From: Natrialba asiatica DSM 12278
GTDB lineage: Archaea > Halobacteriota > Halobacteria > Halobacteriales > Natrialbaceae
NCBI RefSeq assembly: GCF_000337555.1
Contig: NZ_AOIO01000041.1
Coordinates: 62,001-126,000, forward strand
Length of the DNA: 64,000 nucleotides
Reading direction: 5' to 3'
Within the stretch, counting starts at the first letter, position 1. Every line of letters starts with the position of its first letter. The position numbers and the translations under genes are program-made. This document shows, piece by piece, positions 2,196 through 9,469 of the stretch. The notes beneath the pieces are model-generated. The model was not told where the DNA came from. It was given only the letters and a program-made list of their open reading frames with translations, and ran no database searches.

Positions 2196-2858
2196 CTAAT
2201 AGACAACGAGCGCCAGATAAAGCTGTCCGGCTCCAGCCACGATCATCAGGCCTCCGGCGAGCCACTTGAGGGGTCCCGAGTAGGCCGCGAACCGACCTGC
2301 ACTCGCAACCAGCCCCATTCCGGTCGCGACCGTCACCGCGATCATCAGGGCGACGACGCTACCGATGTAGGTCATCAGGACGAGCGCCGCCGCCTCGGTC
2401 GGCAGCGATAGCGAGCGGGCGACGACCGCGAGGAAGACGGGCGCGACGCAACCGGCCCCAGCGAGCGCGTACCCCGAACCGAAGAGTCCGAATCCGAAGA
2501 TACTCGAGCGCCGCTTCGGAAGCGGAATCGACAGCGAGGGGGCGCGACCGGCGAGAACGAGCGCGCCGAAGATCACCAGTAGTCCGCCGACGAGCGACTC
2601 GAAGATCGTGAGGTTCGATAGCGTCTGCTGACCGATTACGAACGTCACCCCGATGAGGGCTGCGAGCGTTCCCAGAACGCCAACGCCTGCGGCGATACCG
2701 CGGGTCGTCGCCCCACCGAGTGATGCGTCGCCGTCCGTCCGGCTGACGTATAACCCGACGTACCCGGGCAACAGCGGATACGCACAGGGGCTAAAGAAGG
2801 TCGCGACGCCGGCAGTGAGTGCGAAGACGACCGTCGACAGGAACGGTGCGTCGATCAC
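2196..2858 (-). CDS. CcdA/DsbD-type thiol-disulfide transport membrane protein
   Basis: The 220-residue protein has six membrane helices. The SPCAYPLLPGY motif in the first helix (Cys about residue 25) and a second conserved cysteine in GAGCVAP are the redox pair that carries electrons across the membrane in CcdA and DsbD. It would pass reducing power from cytoplasmic thioredoxin to extracytoplasmic thioredoxin-like proteins. The GTG start at 2858 overlaps the TGA of the upstream TlpA-like gene (GTGA), which shows translational coupling. A much longer in-frame reading starts inside that gene and is not credible. The operon order is SCO1, TlpA-like, CcdA. Confidence 0.88.
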   Translation of the reverse strand: MIDAPFLSTVVFALTAGVATFFSPCAYPLLPGYVGLYVSRTDGDASLGGATTRGIAAGVGVLGTLAALIGVTFVIGQQTLSNLTIFESLVGGLLVIFGALVLAGRAPSLSIPLPKRRSSIFGFGLFGSGYALAGAGCVAPVFLAVVARSLSLPTEAAALVLMTYIGSVVALMIAVTVATGMGLVASAGRFAAYSGPLKWLAGGLMIVAGAGQLYLALVVY

Positions 2859-3442
2859 GCGTCCGTCCTCGTCTTGAGCGCCTGTTCGATCCCCGCCACG
2901 AGTTCGTCCGCCGTTTTGACTCTGGTGTCCGACCACTGGACGCGACCGGACGTATCGATCGCAACCGCAGAGGGATAGCCGCTCGCGAGATACCGTGCAG
3001 TCAGTTCCGCAGTCGGATCGAGGCCGAGAGACCAGTTCCCGTCGTGTTTCTCCCACCAGTCGACTAGTTCTGCTTTCGTCACTGATCGCCCGATCGCTTC
3101 GCTCGTGATCGAGATGAATAGCACGTCGTCACCGATGCGATCGTTCGCCGCCGCAAGTGCAGGCATCTGCTCGATACACGGCGGACACCACGTGCCGAAG
3201 AAATCGATGAACGTGGGTCGGTCGGACGCCGGAACACGGACCTCGCCGGCTTCGCTTCCCGGGGCATCGATCGTCTCGATCGTGAGCGGTTCGGTGTCCG
3301 GAGATCCTGTTCCATCCGAATTCTCGCTCTGGGTTTCGTCTGTTCCATCTCCGAACGACGGTGGACCGCGTATCGCCAGCGCTCCTGCGCCACCGATCGT
3401 ACCCAGACTGCTGACTCCGGCGAGGATATCTCGCCTGCGCAT
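2855..3442 (-). CDS. TlpA/ResA-like thioredoxin-fold protein
   Basis: The 195-residue protein begins with a Tat-like signal (RRRDIL then a hydrophobic run to about residue 24), so it is probably exported. An acidic linker leads to a thioredoxin fold with the active site WCPPC at residues 85-89 and a cis-Pro region (SGYPSA). WCPPC is typical of TlpA/ResA proteins, which reduce cysteines of apocytochromes or copper-site proteins outside the membrane. The neighbouring CcdA would re-reduce it and SCO1 would use or supply copper. The gene starts two bases from the end of the SCO1 gene and overlaps the CcdA start. Confidence 0.88.
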   Translation of the reverse strand: MRRRDILAGVSSLGTIGGAGALAIRGPPSFGDGTDETQSENSDGTGSPDTEPLTIETIDAPGSEAGEVRVPASDRPTFIDFFGTWCPPCIEQMPALAAANDRIGDDVLFISITSEAIGRSVTKAELVDWWEKHDGNWSLGLDPTAELTARYLASGYPSAVAIDTSGRVQWSDTRVKTADELVAGIEQALKTRTDA

Positions 3443-3443
3443 C

Positions 3444-4166
3444 TTACGCTGACACCACCGTTTCGAGATCGTCGACTACCCGTGAGATCTCGACCGTTGC
3501 CCCCCGGGGATACGCTCGCTCGACGATCCCCCGTTCGTTCGCGAGCAGGATCAAATTATAGTGGGGAAACTGATACTCGAGCGAATCGTACTTCTCGGCG
3601 TCGATCTTCTTGAGCGGCAACCCGATCTGATCGGTCAAGATTTTCTTCGCCGTTTCGTACCGCTCCGGTCTGAGGAAGTCCCAGTTCCTGGCCTCGAGAT
3701 CGACTCCCTGCTGACCGGCGAACGTTCGAAGCGCGTCTTCCGTGTCCCGTTCCGGGTCGAACGTCATCGCGAGCAGTTGGACATCGTCACCGTACCCGTT
3801 GGCAGCAGCGGCTTCCTGTGCACGGCGGAGTCGGAGTATCAATGCCGGACACATCCCATCGGGACACGACGTATAAAAGAAGGTCATCAAAACGGCCCGG
3901 TCGCTCTCGAACTGGTCCGTCGAGACGGTTTCACCGGTCAGCGGGTTGGGGAGTTCGACCGACGGAACGTCGTCGCCGTAGCTCGGATGCGACGACTCGC
4001 TCAGATCTTGATCCGGTGGGCCGAGAACCGCTCCGTCGGCACGCTTCCGTTCACTACCGTCGCTGTCGTCTGCCTGTCCCTCGCCACTCGAGAAGGAATC
4101 CAGACAGCCTGCAGTGGTAGCGACACTCGAGGCGGCGATCGATCGGAGCCAGAGACGCCGGTTCAT
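3444..4166 (-). CDS. SCO1/SenC family copper-handling lipoprotein
   Basis: The 240-residue protein starts with MNRRLWLRS and a hydrophobic segment ending in TTAGC (Cys21), which fits a Tat-exported lipoprotein. The SCO domain has a cysteine pair at residues 101 and 106 (CPDGMC) and a distal His at about residue 202 (FPHYN), matching the copper ligands of SCO proteins, though the cysteines are separated by four rather than the usual three residues. Family members deliver copper to the Cu-A centre of cytochrome oxidase or reduce its cysteines. It is first in an operon with TlpA-like and CcdA genes. A dyad element lies 40 bases upstream of the start. Confidence 0.87.
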   Translation of the reverse strand: MNRRLWLRSIAASSVATTAGCLDSFSSGEGQADDSDGSERKRADGAVLGPPDQDLSESSHPSYGDDVPSVELPNPLTGETVSTDQFESDRAVLMTFFYTSCPDGMCPALILRLRRAQEAAAANGYGDDVQLLAMTFDPERDTEDALRTFAGQQGVDLEARNWDFLRPERYETAKKILTDQIGLPLKKIDAEKYDSLEYQFPHYNLILLANERGIVERAYPRGATVEISRVVDDLETVVSA

Positions 4167-4205: not shown

Positions 4206-4226
4206 GATTCCCCGAGTCAGAAAAAA
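4206..4226. promoter_or_regulatory. putative redox-regulon operator, copy 1
   Basis: The left arm GATTCCCCG is identical to the left arm of copy 2 (4940-4960). It is followed by three bases and a right half starting CAG with A-rich sequence, matching six of nine positions of CAGCAAATC. The element ends 40 bases upstream of the SCO1 start. The same geometry occurs at 4940 and 6394. Confidence 0.5.
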
Positions 4227-4280
4227 GGGCAGCGGCGAGGGTGAACGAGGAGCGCGAATGCCGCTCGGGAGTTCGAGATA

Positions 4281-4544
4281 TCACTTCGTCAACGAAATGA
4301 GAACGAGCACCATCCCGCTCGAGACGATGGCCGCCTGCACGAGGGCGGCGGACGCGATCGTCGTCCCGAACACGTGGTAGATGAGTCCCTCGCAGATCGC
4401 GCCGGCGCCGATGAAGACGAACCCGCCGGAGACGTACAGCATTGGCGTCTGACCGCTGCGCCGATAGCCGTGATACGCCAGATACGCGACGCCGAGACTC
4501 AACACGAACGTGAACAGTTTGGCGATCACGAACGACGCTTCCAT
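4281..4544 (-). CDS. DUF7521-type small membrane protein
   Basis: The 87-residue protein has three hydrophobic segments and a glutamate within a membrane stretch (GAICEGLIYH). It overlaps the stop of the winged-helix regulator by one base. Small three-helix membrane proteins paired with a winged-helix gene are a recurrent haloarchaeal arrangement (DUF7521). The role is unknown. A membrane sensor or anti-regulator for the adjacent HTH protein is a reasonable inference from the fixed pairing. Confidence 0.7.
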   Translation of the reverse strand: MEASFVIAKLFTFVLSLGVAYLAYHGYRRSGQTPMLYVSGGFVFIGAGAICEGLIYHVFGTTIASAALVQAAIVSSGMVLVLISLTK

Positions 4545-4903
4545 CAGTCGTCACCCCGGAGATCGCTCCAGAGGGACGTGAAGTTGTCAGCGAGTTCGTC
4601 GCGGGTCTCCAGCGTCAGCGAGAGCTGCCCGTCGGTGATATCGACGTGGAGCTCCTCGAGCGACGTTTGGAACTTGCTTCGATGGGAGCCGTCCGAATCG
4701 ACGGTGTTCCGTTCCTCGATAAGGTCGTGGTCCTGCAGCGTCGATACTCGCCGATAGATCGTCGTGAGCGAGGCGTCGCATTCCTCACTGAGCGTTTTCG
4801 CGGTCTTCGGCCCGTGATCCGCGGCGAGGAGTATCTTCCGTGCATACTCGTCCGCGAGGATCTGAAAGATTTCCGCCGAGTCCGAAGAGCCTCCGTGTTG
4901 CAC
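4544..4903 (-). CDS. winged helix-turn-helix transcriptional regulator
   Basis: The 119-residue DNA-binding protein begins AEIFQILADEYARKIL, the standard opening of haloarchaeal ArsR-like winged helices, with the recognition helix in ASLTTIYRRVSTL and the wing around EERNTVDSDGSHRSKF. The start chosen is the GTG at 4903. The reading frame extends to a TTG at 4957, but that extension runs through the operator-like dyad. It is co-transcribed with the membrane protein at 4281. The dyads in front of this gene, the SCO1 operon and the 5313-6352 pair suggest that it controls all three, which is an inference. Confidence 0.78.
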   Translation of the reverse strand: MQHGGSSDSAEIFQILADEYARKILLAADHGPKTAKTLSEECDASLTTIYRRVSTLQDHDLIEERNTVDSDGSHRSKFQTSLEELHVDITDGQLSLTLETRDELADNFTSLWSDLRGDD

Positions 4904-4939
4904 ACGATAGACCCCGTCGTTCAGTACCAAATAGGCCAC

Positions 4940-4960
4940 GATTCCCCGACTCAGCAAATC
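4940..4960. promoter_or_regulatory. putative redox-regulon operator, copy 2
   Basis: Left arm GATTCCCCG, spacer ACT, right arm CAGCAAATC. The left arm matches copy 1 exactly and the right arm matches copy 3 exactly. The element ends 37 bases upstream of the GTG start of the winged-helix regulator, consistent with autoregulation. Confidence 0.55.
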
Positions 4961-5002
4961 ACCGTCACCGTCTTATCCCTGACTTTCGGGTAGCACTCGT
5001 GA

Positions 5003-5266
5003 CTACTGTCGGTCGTCATCCGCTTCGTCTCCTGGCGGTAACCAGACGACGTCGAACCAGAACGCCTCGAGCGTGTGGACGACGTCGACGAACCCGTCTC
5101 GGTCATCCGGCTTCCGAATATATGCGTTTGCGCGGAGCGCGTATGACTGTGCGATACATTCCCCGTCTAACTCTGTGAAGACGATGATGGGAACGTCCGT
5201 CCATTTGGGATCGATATCGAGCGTCTCGAGGAGCGGGCGCCAGTTTCGGGAGGGCGTGTATATCAT
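5003..5266 (-). pseudogene. response-regulator receiver domain, 5'-truncated
   Basis: The 87 residues correspond to the second half of a haloarchaeal CheY-like receiver. VPIIVFTELDGECIAQSYAL is the beta-4/alpha-4 region, ANAYIRKPDD contains the conserved Lys-Pro, and FWFDVVWLPP is the usual C-terminal end. The first half, with the acidic pocket and the phosphorylated Asp, is missing, so the product could not act as a phospho-receiver. The upstream sequence does not restore it in any frame I examined. A complete receiver of the same general class is present at 19084-19524. Confidence 0.7.
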
Positions 5267-5312
5267 TATTTCAATAATTCAACAATGCGGTGGTGATTCA
5301 TGGTCGAACGCA

Positions 5313-5807
5313 TCACGGTGTGCAGGTCGGACACGACCGCCTGTGGCGAACGTAGATAAGTCCCGCCAGAATCGCCACGGAGAGCGCGCCGAGGGCCGGT
5401 CGTAACGGATCGAAGTACGTCATGAGCGCGGACGAACTGAACAGGGCGAGCAGGGCAACGTTACAGATCGGACAACCGACCGCCAGGAATCCGCCGACGA
5501 GACCGCCGAGCGCCCAGCGATCCTCGCTGCTCGCGCCGTCGGCCTCGCTCTCGTCGTCGCCCTCGAGGTCGGGATCGGACACCTTGGTCGCCAGTCGCTG
5601 TGCGGTGTAGACGGCCGCCAGCAGCGCGGTCAGCATCAGAAACAGGTAGTCGGTGGGCGTCCGGGGGACCATCCGAACGTACAGGGGGTTCGGGATGAGA
5701 CCGGTGACGAGCCCGAATAGCACGACCACGCCAATTCCGGTGGCCGTTCCCCACAGCATCGCTCGCCGATCCGATCGAATCGATCGGGCGAAGTCGTGTG
5801 CCGTCAT
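5313..5807 (-). CDS. membrane protein with CPIC motif
   Basis: The 164-residue protein has five or so membrane helices, a central acidic loop (SDPDLEGDDESEAD) and a CPIC motif inside a helix (GGFLAVGCPICNVALL), with a second cysteine pair near the C-terminus (SCPTC). The ATG at 5807 overlaps the stop of the upstream membrane-protein gene (ATGA). The cysteine pairs and the neighbouring DsbA-like gene suggest a transmembrane thiol-disulfide carrier, functionally like DsbB or VKOR, although no family is recognised. A reading that extends upstream to 6386 is the wrong frame of the neighbouring gene. Confidence 0.72.
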   Translation of the reverse strand: MTAHDFARSIRSDRRAMLWGTATGIGVVVLFGLVTGLIPNPLYVRMVPRTPTDYLFLMLTALLAAVYTAQRLATKVSDPDLEGDDESEADGASSEDRWALGGLVGGFLAVGCPICNVALLALFSSSALMTYFDPLRPALGALSVAILAGLIYVRHRRSCPTCTP

Positions 5808-6352
5808 TTCGTCGCCTCCGTCGTGATCACACAGTGTTCCGGATGGCCCGCTCGTCCGAGGAAGAACACCAAGAGGGCGAGCCCGCCGATGCGAAGCAAC
5901 GCGCCGTCGTACGGGAGTACTGCCAGTCCCCCGGCGAACCCAAGAAAGCCGAGGAGGCCGGCACCGCAGCTCGCACACCCCGATGCGAGGAGCCCCGGGA
6001 CGACGCCGGAGAGGTCGGTGAGACTCGAGAGACCGACGATCTGCAGTTGCGCAACGGCGTTGACGACCGCGACGCCCGAGAGCAGGGCGTAGAGGACGAT
6101 GACCGCGAGCCCCAACCAGCCGTCGGTTCGGTAAATCGTCTCCGTGAGCGAGACGAGGACGTATTCGAACCAGTGGAGTCCGTCGCCGAGCATCTGGAGC
6201 GAGAACTCCGGCATCGTACTCAGGATCAGGAGGACGTAGGTGGCGACCGTCACGAGTACCAGTCCGATCGTCCCTCGCCACGTCTCGAACGGGTACGAGA
6301 CCGCTGCAGCGAGGTTCGTCAGGTACCTGCTGATCGAATCGCGCGTGAACAT
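5804..6352 (-). CDS. membrane protein with CASC motif
   Basis: The 182-residue protein has about five membrane helices and an intramembrane cysteine cluster (LLASGCASCGAGLLG, near residues 125-140). It is translationally coupled to the CPIC membrane protein. The two proteins have similar size, helix pattern and mid-helix CxxC motifs, so they may form a heteromeric redox carrier. The divergent neighbour is a secreted DsbA-like protein. A perfect dyad lies 42 bases upstream of the ATG. The function is inferred from context only. Confidence 0.72.
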   Translation of the reverse strand: MFTRDSISRYLTNLAAAVSYPFETWRGTIGLVLVTVATYVLLILSTMPEFSLQMLGDGLHWFEYVLVSLTETIYRTDGWLGLAVIVLYALLSGVAVVNAVAQLQIVGLSSLTDLSGVVPGLLASGCASCGAGLLGFLGFAGGLAVLPYDGALLRIGGLALLVFFLGRAGHPEHCVITTEATK

Positions 6353-6393
6353 CTATCCACACCGATGCAGAGATGACTGAAATCACCGACTCC

Positions 6394-6414
6394 GATTTGC
6401 TGGGTCAGCAAATC
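6394..6414. promoter_or_regulatory. perfect dyad in a divergent promoter (redox-regulon operator, copy 3)
   Basis: The arms GATTTGCTG and CAGCAAATC are perfect inverted repeats separated by GGT. The element sits between the divergent membrane-protein operon (start 6352) and the DsbA-like gene (start 6463), 42 and 49 bases from the two starts. The right arm is identical to that of copy 2. Confidence 0.65.
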
Positions 6415-6462: not shown

Positions 6463-7188
6463 ATGTCGCTCGATCAGCCGTCTCGTCGCGCTCTCGTTAC
6501 AGGTCTCGTTGGAACGCTCGGCGTCGGTGGCGCTTACTATCTCACGCGATCTGACGGCACCGCTCACGACCTCTCCCCGTCGTTTCACTCGAGCGACGAG
6601 ACATCGAACCTCGGCGTCGAATTGCAGGGGAAGCCGATTATGGGTGCGTCCGATGCACCGCTCGATATCTACTACTGGACGGACTTCCAGTGTCCGTTCT
6701 GCGAACAGTTCGAACGGGAGACGCTCCCCGACCTCGTTCGAAAGTACGTCGAACAGGGTACGGTCCGAATCATATTCATCTCGCTGCCGTACTTCGGTGC
6801 TGACTCGATGACGGCCGCGATCGGCGGCAAGTGCGTATGGGACCAGGTTCGCGACGCCGACCCATCGACGTACTGGGACTGGCATGCGGCGATCTTCGAG
6901 GAACAGGGAGAGAAGAACTCCGGCTGGGCCACAGCCGAGAATCTCCTCGAGTACACGCGCTCGGTCGACGGCGTCGACGCCGACTCGCTCGAGTCGTGTC
7001 TCGACGATCGACGATCGGCGCTCGAAGACGAGATCAACGCGGATAGCGAGCAAGCACGCTCGTTTGGCGTTGGGGGGACGCCGACATTCTCCGTCTTCGA
7101 TCCGGACTCCGAATCCGTCGGGACGCTCGTCGGCGCACAGCCAATCGAGCGCTTCGACGAGGCGATCGAGCGGATCGGGGACGCGTAA
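6463..7188 (+). CDS. DsbA-family thioredoxin-fold protein, exported
   Basis: The 241-residue protein has a Tat-like N-terminus (PSRRALVTGLVG and a hydrophobic stretch to about residue 27). The DsbA/thioredoxin_4 fold follows, with the active site CPFC at residues 77-80, a helical insertion, and the cis-Pro loop GGTPTFSVF near residue 206. It would oxidise or isomerise disulfides, or move thiols, outside the cytoplasmic membrane. It is divergent from two CxxC membrane proteins that could recycle it, and the shared promoter has a perfect dyad. Confidence 0.88.
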   Translation: MSLDQPSRRALVTGLVGTLGVGGAYYLTRSDGTAHDLSPSFHSSDETSNLGVELQGKPIMGASDAPLDIYYWTDFQCPFCEQFERETLPDLVRKYVEQGTVRIIFISLPYFGADSMTAAIGGKCVWDQVRDADPSTYWDWHAAIFEEQGEKNSGWATAENLLEYTRSVDGVDADSLESCLDDRRSALEDEINADSEQARSFGVGGTPTFSVFDPDSESVGTLVGAQPIERFDEAIERIGDA

Positions 7189-8253: not shown

Positions 8254-8502
8254 ACCACAAAAATCAGTTCTGGATTCCACCATCGATCGCTCGGGACAAC
8301 CACCGATTCGTAGGAGTACACCATCGTGCGCTGCTCCAGCGAAAACCGGGCGGACGAATCGCGTGTAGGAGCCTCCTGCATCGTTCGACAAGCGAGTGGG
8401 CACGTAGCAGAGGGATATCGGGCGGGCGGTCAGTTTGAGACCGCAATCGCTGACTCGGAAAATCGACCGAACACATATTCCCTTCTGTCCTCAAATTCAC
8501 GT

Positions 8503-8769
8503 ATGAGTTCGGACGTTTCCAGTCAATCGCTGCTCGGGCTGGCAGGGCTCGCGAGCCTCTGTTGTATCGGACCGGGGACCGCCGCCATCGCCGGCGGGAC
8601 GTCAGTCGGAATGATCGCTGGAGTCGTACAGGGAGCGGTGATCTTCGCAGTGCTCGGCGTCATCGCGCTACTGATCCGAGTGCGCTCGAACTGTTCGTGT
8701 TCGGCCCGTGACGCGGACCGGGAAGCGCAGCGGTCCCCGAGTGTGGAGCGAAACGCTGACCTCGAGTAA
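8503..8769 (+). CDS. small cysteine-containing membrane protein
   Basis: The 88-residue protein has two hydrophobic helices. The first includes a vicinal cysteine pair (LASLCCIGPGTAAIAGG, about residues 13-28), and the region after the second helix has CSCSAR. The cysteine placement recalls small MerT/MerC-like thiol or metal membrane proteins, without enough similarity to assign one. The ATG at 8503 opens directly before the first helix. The in-frame extension upstream is not protein-like. Context suggests a thiol or metal transport role. Confidence 0.65.
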   Translation: MSSDVSSQSLLGLAGLASLCCIGPGTAAIAGGTSVGMIAGVVQGAVIFAVLGVIALLIRVRSNCSCSARDADREAQRSPSVERNADLE

Positions 8770-8944: not shown

Positions 8945-9469
8945 ATGACTGAGACATTCGTCGTTATCGGCGGTGACGCCGCGGGAATGAGCGCCGCGAG
9001 CAAGGCGAAACGCGAGGATCCCGAGCGGGAGGTGATCGTCTTCGAGAAAGGGGAGTGGGTCTCCTACGCCGCCTGCGGGATGCCCTACTACGTGAAGGGC
9101 GCGGTGGACGACCTGGACGACCTCGTTACCGTGACGCCCGAGGAGTTCCGGGAGGGACGGGATGTCGACCTGCGAACGAGCGCAGAGGTCGTCGGTATCG
9201 ATCTCGACGCGCAGACGGTGACGGTCGAGACCTGCGACGAGACGGACGAACAGCCCTACGACGACCTCCTCGTCGCGACCGGCGGCGGCGACGCGAAGAC
9301 ACTTCGAAACGCCGGCGTTCCGACGGTAGAGTTCGCGCTCGCGACGGATACCGTCCACGCGGTCGACGAGTACACGACCGTCGACGCGCTCATCGGGAAC
9401 GCGATGGTGTACGCGCGCCTGCCCGAAGTATGGGCGTCTGCAGTCGACAGGATGGATCCATCCGGATAG
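8945..9469 (+). pseudogene. pyridine nucleotide-disulfide reductase (CoA-disulfide-reductase-like), truncated
   Basis: The first 120-odd residues are a clear FAD-binding N-terminus. VVIGGDAAGMSAASKAKR is the dinucleotide fold, followed by the redox-active cysteine region SYAACGMPYYV (Cys about 43) and LLVATGGG. Typical CoA-disulfide, persulfide or NADH-oxidase-type enzymes of this class are about 450-560 residues, but this frame stops at 174. The last 45 residues do not match the family, and the NAD domain and dimerisation domain are absent. It is most likely a remnant left by deletion. The intact enzyme would fit the persulfide theme of the cluster. Confidence 0.72.

Follow-up and report, generated by a model that had tools for sequence, protein, structure and literature searches.

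A conserved dyad at exported thiol and copper genes of Natrialba asiatica and its probable regulator, a winged-helix protein paired with DUF7521

Three similar 21-bp dyads lie upstream of start codons in a 64,000-nucleotide stretch of the Natrialba asiatica DSM 12278 genome (here called the window; C41:62001-126000). An original prediction, made from the letters alone, had read them as a compact regulon for exported thiol and copper chemistry under a linked winged-helix/DUF7521 pair. This raises the questions of whether the dyads are operators, which protein would read them and in which direction control would run. Our best overall explanation, drawn from sequence comparison, is that the dyads are likely to be the operators of one regulon under the linked winged-helix protein.

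Dyad sites and neighbouring genes

The dyads predicted at 4206, 4940 and 6394 are all present, together with a further one at 8444:

4206..4226: dyad 1, degenerate, GATTCCCCGAGTCAGAAAAAA; 39 nt before SCO1; 18.0 bits, rank 3
4940..4960: dyad 2, GATTCCCCGACTCAGCAAATC; 36 nt before the winged-helix gene; 27.2 bits, rank 2
6394..6414: dyad 3, GATTTGCTGGGTCAGCAAATC; perfect 9-3-9 palindrome; 35.5 bits, rank 1 in the window
8444..8464: dyad 4, CAATCGCTGACTCGGAAAATC; 38 nt before the ATG at 8503; 15.9 bits, rank 4

The window reads GATTCCCCG-AGT-CAGAAAAAA at 4206, GATTCCCCG-ACT-CAGCAAATC at 4940 and GATTTGCTG-GGT-CAGCAAATC at 6394. The description as nine-base half-sites around a three-base spacer holds in full for 6394, the only perfect 9-3-9 inverted repeat among these three. 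The site at 4940 is a mixed dyad with one GATTCCCCG and one CAGCAAATC half, and that at 4206 has GATTCCCCGAGTCAG in common with the other sites and a degenerate right side ending in CAGAAAAAA. The 37-42 bases to the start codons given earlier were coordinate differences; the real gaps are 39, 36 and 41 nt. Dyad 3 has a shared position, with CxxC_A starting 41 nt away on the minus strand and the divergent DsbA gene 48 nt away on the plus strand. The genes concerned are:

2196..2859, minus strand: CcdA/DsbD-like membrane protein, assigned by inspection only; conserved beside TlpA in many loci
2855..3442, minus strand: TlpA-like exported thioredoxin-fold protein (Redoxin/AhpC-TSA)
3444..4166, minus strand: SCO1/SenC-like lipoprotein, first gene of the SCO1-TlpA-CcdA operon (PF02630, E 8.5e-13)
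4281..4544, minus strand: DUF7521, 87-aa membrane protein, proposed partner (PF24365, E 6.7e-17)
4544..4903, minus strand: winged-helix protein, 119 aa, proposed regulator; HTH_20/ArsR-like fold, conserved cysteine C42 at the end of helix 3
5313..5807, minus strand: CxxC_B, membrane protein with conserved CPiCN and a C-terminal CxxC; no known family
5804..6352, minus strand: CxxC_A, helical membrane protein with invariant ASGCASCGAG; no known family
6463..7188, plus strand: DsbA-like exported thioredoxin-fold protein (CPFC), divergent from CxxC_A (PF13462/PF01323)
8503..8769, plus strand: 88-aa membrane protein with CCIGP, MerT-like by motif only; no significant family match

When a matrix of 60 distinct sites, taken from other genera only, was applied to 63,980 window positions, the four dyads took ranks 1-4 and the next position scored only 4.0 bits. 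Dyad 4 is conserved in other loci at 38 nt (42 in one) before the CCIGP gene. Allowing up to 3 mismatches, the consensus GATTTGCTGANTCAGCAAATC is matched three times in the whole genome (4.40 Mb, 99.8 % complete), and the three matches fall within 10.2 kb on a single contig; a simple composition estimate gives about 0.1 chance matches, and the reversed-pattern control gave none. These canonical matches are 6394, 4940 and C41:58178, the last 3.8 kb left of the window, between multicopper oxidase and carbamoyltransferase genes and 54 nt before the carbamoyltransferase. The multicopper oxidase itself has a variant, GATTCC-N9-GGAATC (L034:8023-8043, C41:58022-58042), 39 nt before its start; it is the only perfect match to that pattern in the 4.4-Mb genome, and several relatives have similar elements at the same place. 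The three-site regulon was thus real in its sites and too small in its extent. The loose half-site pattern GATT-N13-AATC was not enriched in the window (2 found, 1.2 expected), so the argument for an operator depends on the complete dyad and on how it is conserved.

The theme of exported thiol and copper chemistry fits the gene content, which now also includes multicopper oxidases, a four-helix copper-binding protein, the carbamoyltransferase and a gene annotated as polysaccharide deacetylase. Judged from these genes, the common theme would be copper handling together with disulfide chemistry at the cell surface. The DUF326/Csp-type four-helix copper-binding protein has homologs in 11 loci, and the Haloterrigena turkmenica pHTUR01 cluster has its gene after DsbA, as well as two multicopper oxidases. 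For the carbamoyltransferase and the polysaccharide deacetylase no role in copper or thiol chemistry is obvious; they may form a cell-surface modification branch. No Pfam or PDB match was obtained for the CcdA-like protein, and an AlphaFold model of CxxC_A (20 sequences, pLDDT 70) had no PDB fold match.

Some further features of the region were observed. The carbamoyltransferase gene (L034:8254-10039, C41:58253-60038) is split over several frames here and is one frame of ~580 aa in relatives, indicating a pseudogene or an assembly error; the operator is still present. A short ORF at 8945-9469 of the window opens as a CoA-disulfide reductase (residues 1-114), closes like an M20 peptidase and looks like a recombination or deletion junction. 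An 87-aa fragment at 5003-5266 resembles a response-regulator receiver domain; several genomes conserve it in the interval that separates the CxxC pair from the winged-helix gene.

Conservation and co-occurrence with the winged-helix gene

Conservation in related genomes had been named as the check on the original prediction, and the dyad does recur in dozens of haloarchaea, with target genes and distances unchanged. It was found in 33 regulator-bearing relatives at fixed distances from the target genes. Of 149 genomes, 43 had a match to the pattern and one had a match to the reversed control; winged-helix orthologs occur in about 40 of the 149, and 40 regions were read out. The dyad lies 36 nt before the winged-helix gene in 58 of the 59 aligned loci that keep it, and the best dyad at SCO1 lies at 39 nt in nearly all SCO1 loci. 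Across loci the distances are 41-43 nt for CxxC_A, 43-51 nt for DsbA, 53-60 nt for the carbamoyltransferase and 49-57 nt for the gene annotated as polysaccharide deacetylase (14 loci; 54 nt in H. turkmenica pHTUR01). A second collection of 50 named loci, from Natrinema, Natrialba, Haloterrigena, Natronorubrum, Halostagnicola, Halobiforma, Natronococcus and others, agrees. Upstream of the winged-helix gene, column information averages 1.10 bits per column in the dyad compared to 0.53 in the flanks. Where the carbamoyltransferase and winged-helix genes are divergent (e.g. L054, L057, L059, L063), a single dyad lies between both. Large plasmids often carry the clusters (30 plasmid records).

The fixed 36 nt might instead have reflected an in-frame start codon upstream. 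The region is open in the genomes viewed by eye, but the candidate starts are not conserved while the TATTT box is, and promoter spacing is therefore the better reading.

Site and regulator occur together. With orthologs taken at 53 % identity or more, 34 of the 149 genomes have both ortholog and site, 7 the ortholog only, 9 the site only and 99 neither, i.e. the two agree in 133 (Fisher p = 1.6e-18 without phylogenetic correction, which is overstated because relatives are not independent). All seven ortholog-bearing genomes without a canonical site have orthologs of at most 63 % identity, and several genomes have kept the site at DsbA/CxxC_A and lost it at the regulator's own promoter. Carbamoyltransferase homologs (66-75 % identity) in 17 regulator-negative genomes had no dyad upstream, the best candidates having 8-11 mismatches as in the background, and upstream of most DsbA/CxxC_A homologs in regulator-negative genomes only background similarity was found. 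Every genome with CxxC_A at 68 % identity or more also has the regulator.

The sites without a close ortholog are exceptions that, on sequence grounds, mostly support the link between regulator and dyad. In four of these genomes (G130, G064, G146 and G139) winged-helix proteins of 39-42 % identity, paired with DUF7521, have the dyad directly upstream. In G139 and G146 the pair (40-42 %) lies beside CxxC_A, CxxC_B and DsbA, with GATTCGCTGGCTCAGCAAAAG upstream; in G130 and G064 the pair (39-41 %) and its dyad are divergent from a halocyanin-like blue-copper protein. Another genome without a close ortholog (G007) has a decayed site with 6 mismatches at the carbamoyltransferase. Winged-helix/DUF7521 paralogs that have the dyad and are divergent from a halocyanin-like copper protein lie at L104:12385 and L105:9823.

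In G022 and G046, SCO1-TlpA-CcdA, the carbamoyltransferase and CxxC_A are on a contig other than that of the main winged-helix gene, with the dyad at 39, 56 and 41 nt, which points to control in trans, beyond a conserved block of genes. The regulon is hence compact, as predicted, where its genes are clustered, but not in Natribaculum-type genomes, which have some targets on another contig. A second winged-helix gene (41-42 %) lies 4-5 kb from the off-contig SCO1 copy, and its product could take part in control.

On this evidence the dyad is almost certainly the switch of a previously undescribed gene-control circuit. The proposal that the linked winged-helix/DUF7521 pair supplies the regulator is supported in that the site tracks the ortholog, follows the divergent pairs and is mostly absent without the regulator. 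Because the dyad co-occurs with the regulator and is carried by cousins as distant as 39-42 % identity, the linked winged-helix protein, paired with DUF7521, is very probably the regulator of the dyads, and we regard its binding to them as highly likely.

Two other elements were noted. In two genomes (L106:9427 and L117:9386) a dyad variant lies 39 nt before a gene for a 131-aa membrane protein that has another winged-helix gene ~0.5 kb away; this may be a second regulon of the family. At L035:14466-14486 (Haloterrigena) an AT-rich near-dyad lies 28 nt before the start of a ZIP metal transporter, and a similar element occurs at 28-29 nt in L040, L041 and L044.

Regulator, promoter geometry and alternative readings

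The winged-helix protein scores above the Pfam HTH_20 cut-off, and its AlphaFold model (pLDDT 83) matches Phr, SmtB and CzrA in the PDB, best of all Phr of Pyrococcus furiosus (2p4w, E 4e-5). It scored 23.4 bits, below the cut-off of 55, with the NCBIfam metalloregulator model NF033788, and the conserved Cys/His metal-ligand cluster of ArsR proteins (helix 3 or 5) was not found in its alignment. C42 is the sole nearly invariant cysteine; it adjoins the recognition helix in the monomer model and is also conserved in paralogs. H74 is nearly invariant but is located in the wing. With one conserved cysteine and no ArsR metal cluster, a signal would more likely arrive by thiol chemistry or via DUF7521.

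The DUF7521 protein matches PF24365 with 62 bits (cut-off 27), and its gene overlaps the stop of the winged-helix gene, which it directly follows in nearly all loci. In this genome all five DUF7521 genes adjoin a winged-helix gene. The protein has three hydrophobic segments, identified by inspection, and the conserved motifs YRR, PMLYV and GAiCEG; the cysteine of the last is absent from the halocyanin-linked paralogs. Neither DUF7521 nor the dyad sequence turned up in literature searches. One winged-helix/DUF7521 pair, at 29 % and 32 % identity, is also present in a Nitrososphaerales MAG (L244:6334-6999); the pair may predate the haloarchaea, or the contig may be misassigned.

Every dyad lies upstream of a TATA box, and transcription starts were assumed from the TATA position. 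At the winged-helix gene the AT box, read as TATA, begins at +6 from the dyad in 31 of 35 distinct sites, in the window as a TATTT 6 nt past dyad 2. For SCO1, CxxC_A, DsbA, the carbamoyltransferase, the polysaccharide deacetylase and the CCIGP gene it is at +9/+10, i.e. the regulator's own dyad is 3-4 bp closer. The core promoters of the targets look weak (GTTACG, ATTTC). For OxsR and regulators of the TrmB type, a motif upstream of BRE/TATA goes with activation and a downstream one with repression (PMC9426492, PMC4158304). As the dyads lie upstream of BRE/TATA, activation of the targets is favoured, and the closer dyad at the regulator's own gene favours negative autoregulation.

In the mechanism that we propose, a homodimer of the winged-helix protein (4544-4903) would bind GATTTGCTGAnTCAGCAAATC and weaker variants at the SCO1-TlpA-CcdA and CxxC_A/B operons, at DsbA (followed in some genomes by the copper-binding four-helix protein), at the carbamoyltransferase and CCIGP genes and, in other genomes, at the polysaccharide-deacetylase-like gene. 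The dyad ends ~9-10 bp before the target TATA, just upstream of the TFB-recognition element, and the dimer would most likely act by aiding TFB/TBP at weak core promoters. We consider such activation of the targets somewhat favoured by the promoter analysis. At its own gene the closer dyad may well limit regulator synthesis, the chances of autorepression being about even. A copper or thiol signal has slightly better than even chances, and DUF7521, encoded in the same operon, would be the candidate to relay copper or thiol/disulfide stress from the envelope, although its role as the sensor is assigned tentatively. The fully combined scheme, in which DUF7521, through the Cys-Glu of its second hydrophobic segment, senses envelope copper or disulfide state and controls the winged-helix activator, with one operator activating the targets and damping the regulator's own gene, is speculative and rather doubtful as a whole.

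The same regulon could be run by a repressor, the dimer covering the upstream edge of BRE, blocking TFB and being released by copper or oxidised thiols as in classical ArsR proteins. The ArsR-like fold and the only 6 bp between own-gene dyad and TATA would suit this, and a dyad abutting BRE at every target could equally repress. None of the sites, however, lies on the start site; all precede TATA, the activator position in characterised archaeal regulators, and weak core promoters are expected for activator-dependent genes; we therefore regard repression of the targets as a less likely, minority reading. It is also conceivable that the sites are divided between two related regulators, the first acting at canonical dyads (those of the regulator gene, CxxC_A, DsbA, carbamoyltransferase and deacetylase) and the second at sites of a GATTCC type (SCO1, multicopper oxidase, CCIGP), since the SCO1 sites have a consensus of their own (TTTTTCCGACTCGGGGAATC type), the SCO1 and CCIGP sites are weak, and the multicopper oxidase element, 39 nt before the start, is a sole perfect genome match. 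Dyads closer to the canonical form nevertheless occur, at the same distance, at the SCO1 promoter in three genomes (G022, G058, G081) and at the CCIGP promoter in Halobiforma, so that the two types grade into each other and a division appears unlikely.

That another protein, e.g. the nearby TrmB/Sta1-like one (L034:5620-6027), binds the dyads and the winged-helix gene is merely one of its targets is quite improbable. The TrmB-like gene is found in many of the same clusters, and palindromic operators are common to many winged-helix families, but none of the loci showed the dyad upstream of the TrmB-like gene, the presence of the site goes with that of the winged-helix ortholog, and the dyad follows the 39-42 %-identical winged-helix/DUF7521 pairs to loci without a TrmB-like gene. 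A chance or neutral likeness of three AT-rich sequences in a GC-rich genome would agree with the poor palindrome of site 1 and with the ordinary frequency of GATT-N13-AATC, yet a dyad that is rare genome-wide and fixed in sequence and spacing in dozens of genomes leaves it practically no probability; conservation has already refuted it.

Relation to known regulators and significance

The regulators VNG1179C of Halobacterium and CopR of Pyrococcus are of the Lrp/TRASH type. They share with the present system the archaeal control of copper genes (PMC3551603, PMC7830388), but instead of a copper efflux pump the genes regulated here would encode exported chaperones, thiol proteins and oxidases, and the regulator is ArsR-like. 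The thiol-based OxsR of Haloferax volcanii, of the TrmB family, is, like the regulator proposed here, a single haloarchaeal winged-helix protein with a conserved cysteine; it controls thiol-relay genes, and its palindromic motif upstream of BRE/TATA goes with activation (PMC9426492). OxsR differs in family, in its CG-rich motif and in its broad regulon, compared to the HTH_20 protein, AT-flanked GATTTGCTG dyad and membrane partner gene found here. ArsR/SmtB metalloregulators and Phr (2p4w) have the winged-helix fold in common with the protein, which is set apart from ArsR/SmtB by its metalloregulator score (23 against a cut-off of 55), by having one conserved cysteine and no metal-ligand cluster, and by sites upstream of TATA. 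Also comparable are other haloarchaeal winged-helix/DUF7521 pairs, some distant ones using the same dyad.

The regulon is of a known kind, one winged-helix factor with one palindromic operator, and is unusual in its DUF7521 partner and in its two TATA spacings. The analysis gives a precise operator and a target list for a regulator family without a described function, and would be the first to assign a role to a winged-helix protein that is paired with DUF7521. With the same operator at two distances from TATA, the system provides a natural comparison for studying what makes an archaeal regulator activate or repress. For the haloarchaea, it suggests that exported copper delivery, copper storage and disulfide chemistry are controlled as one circuit.
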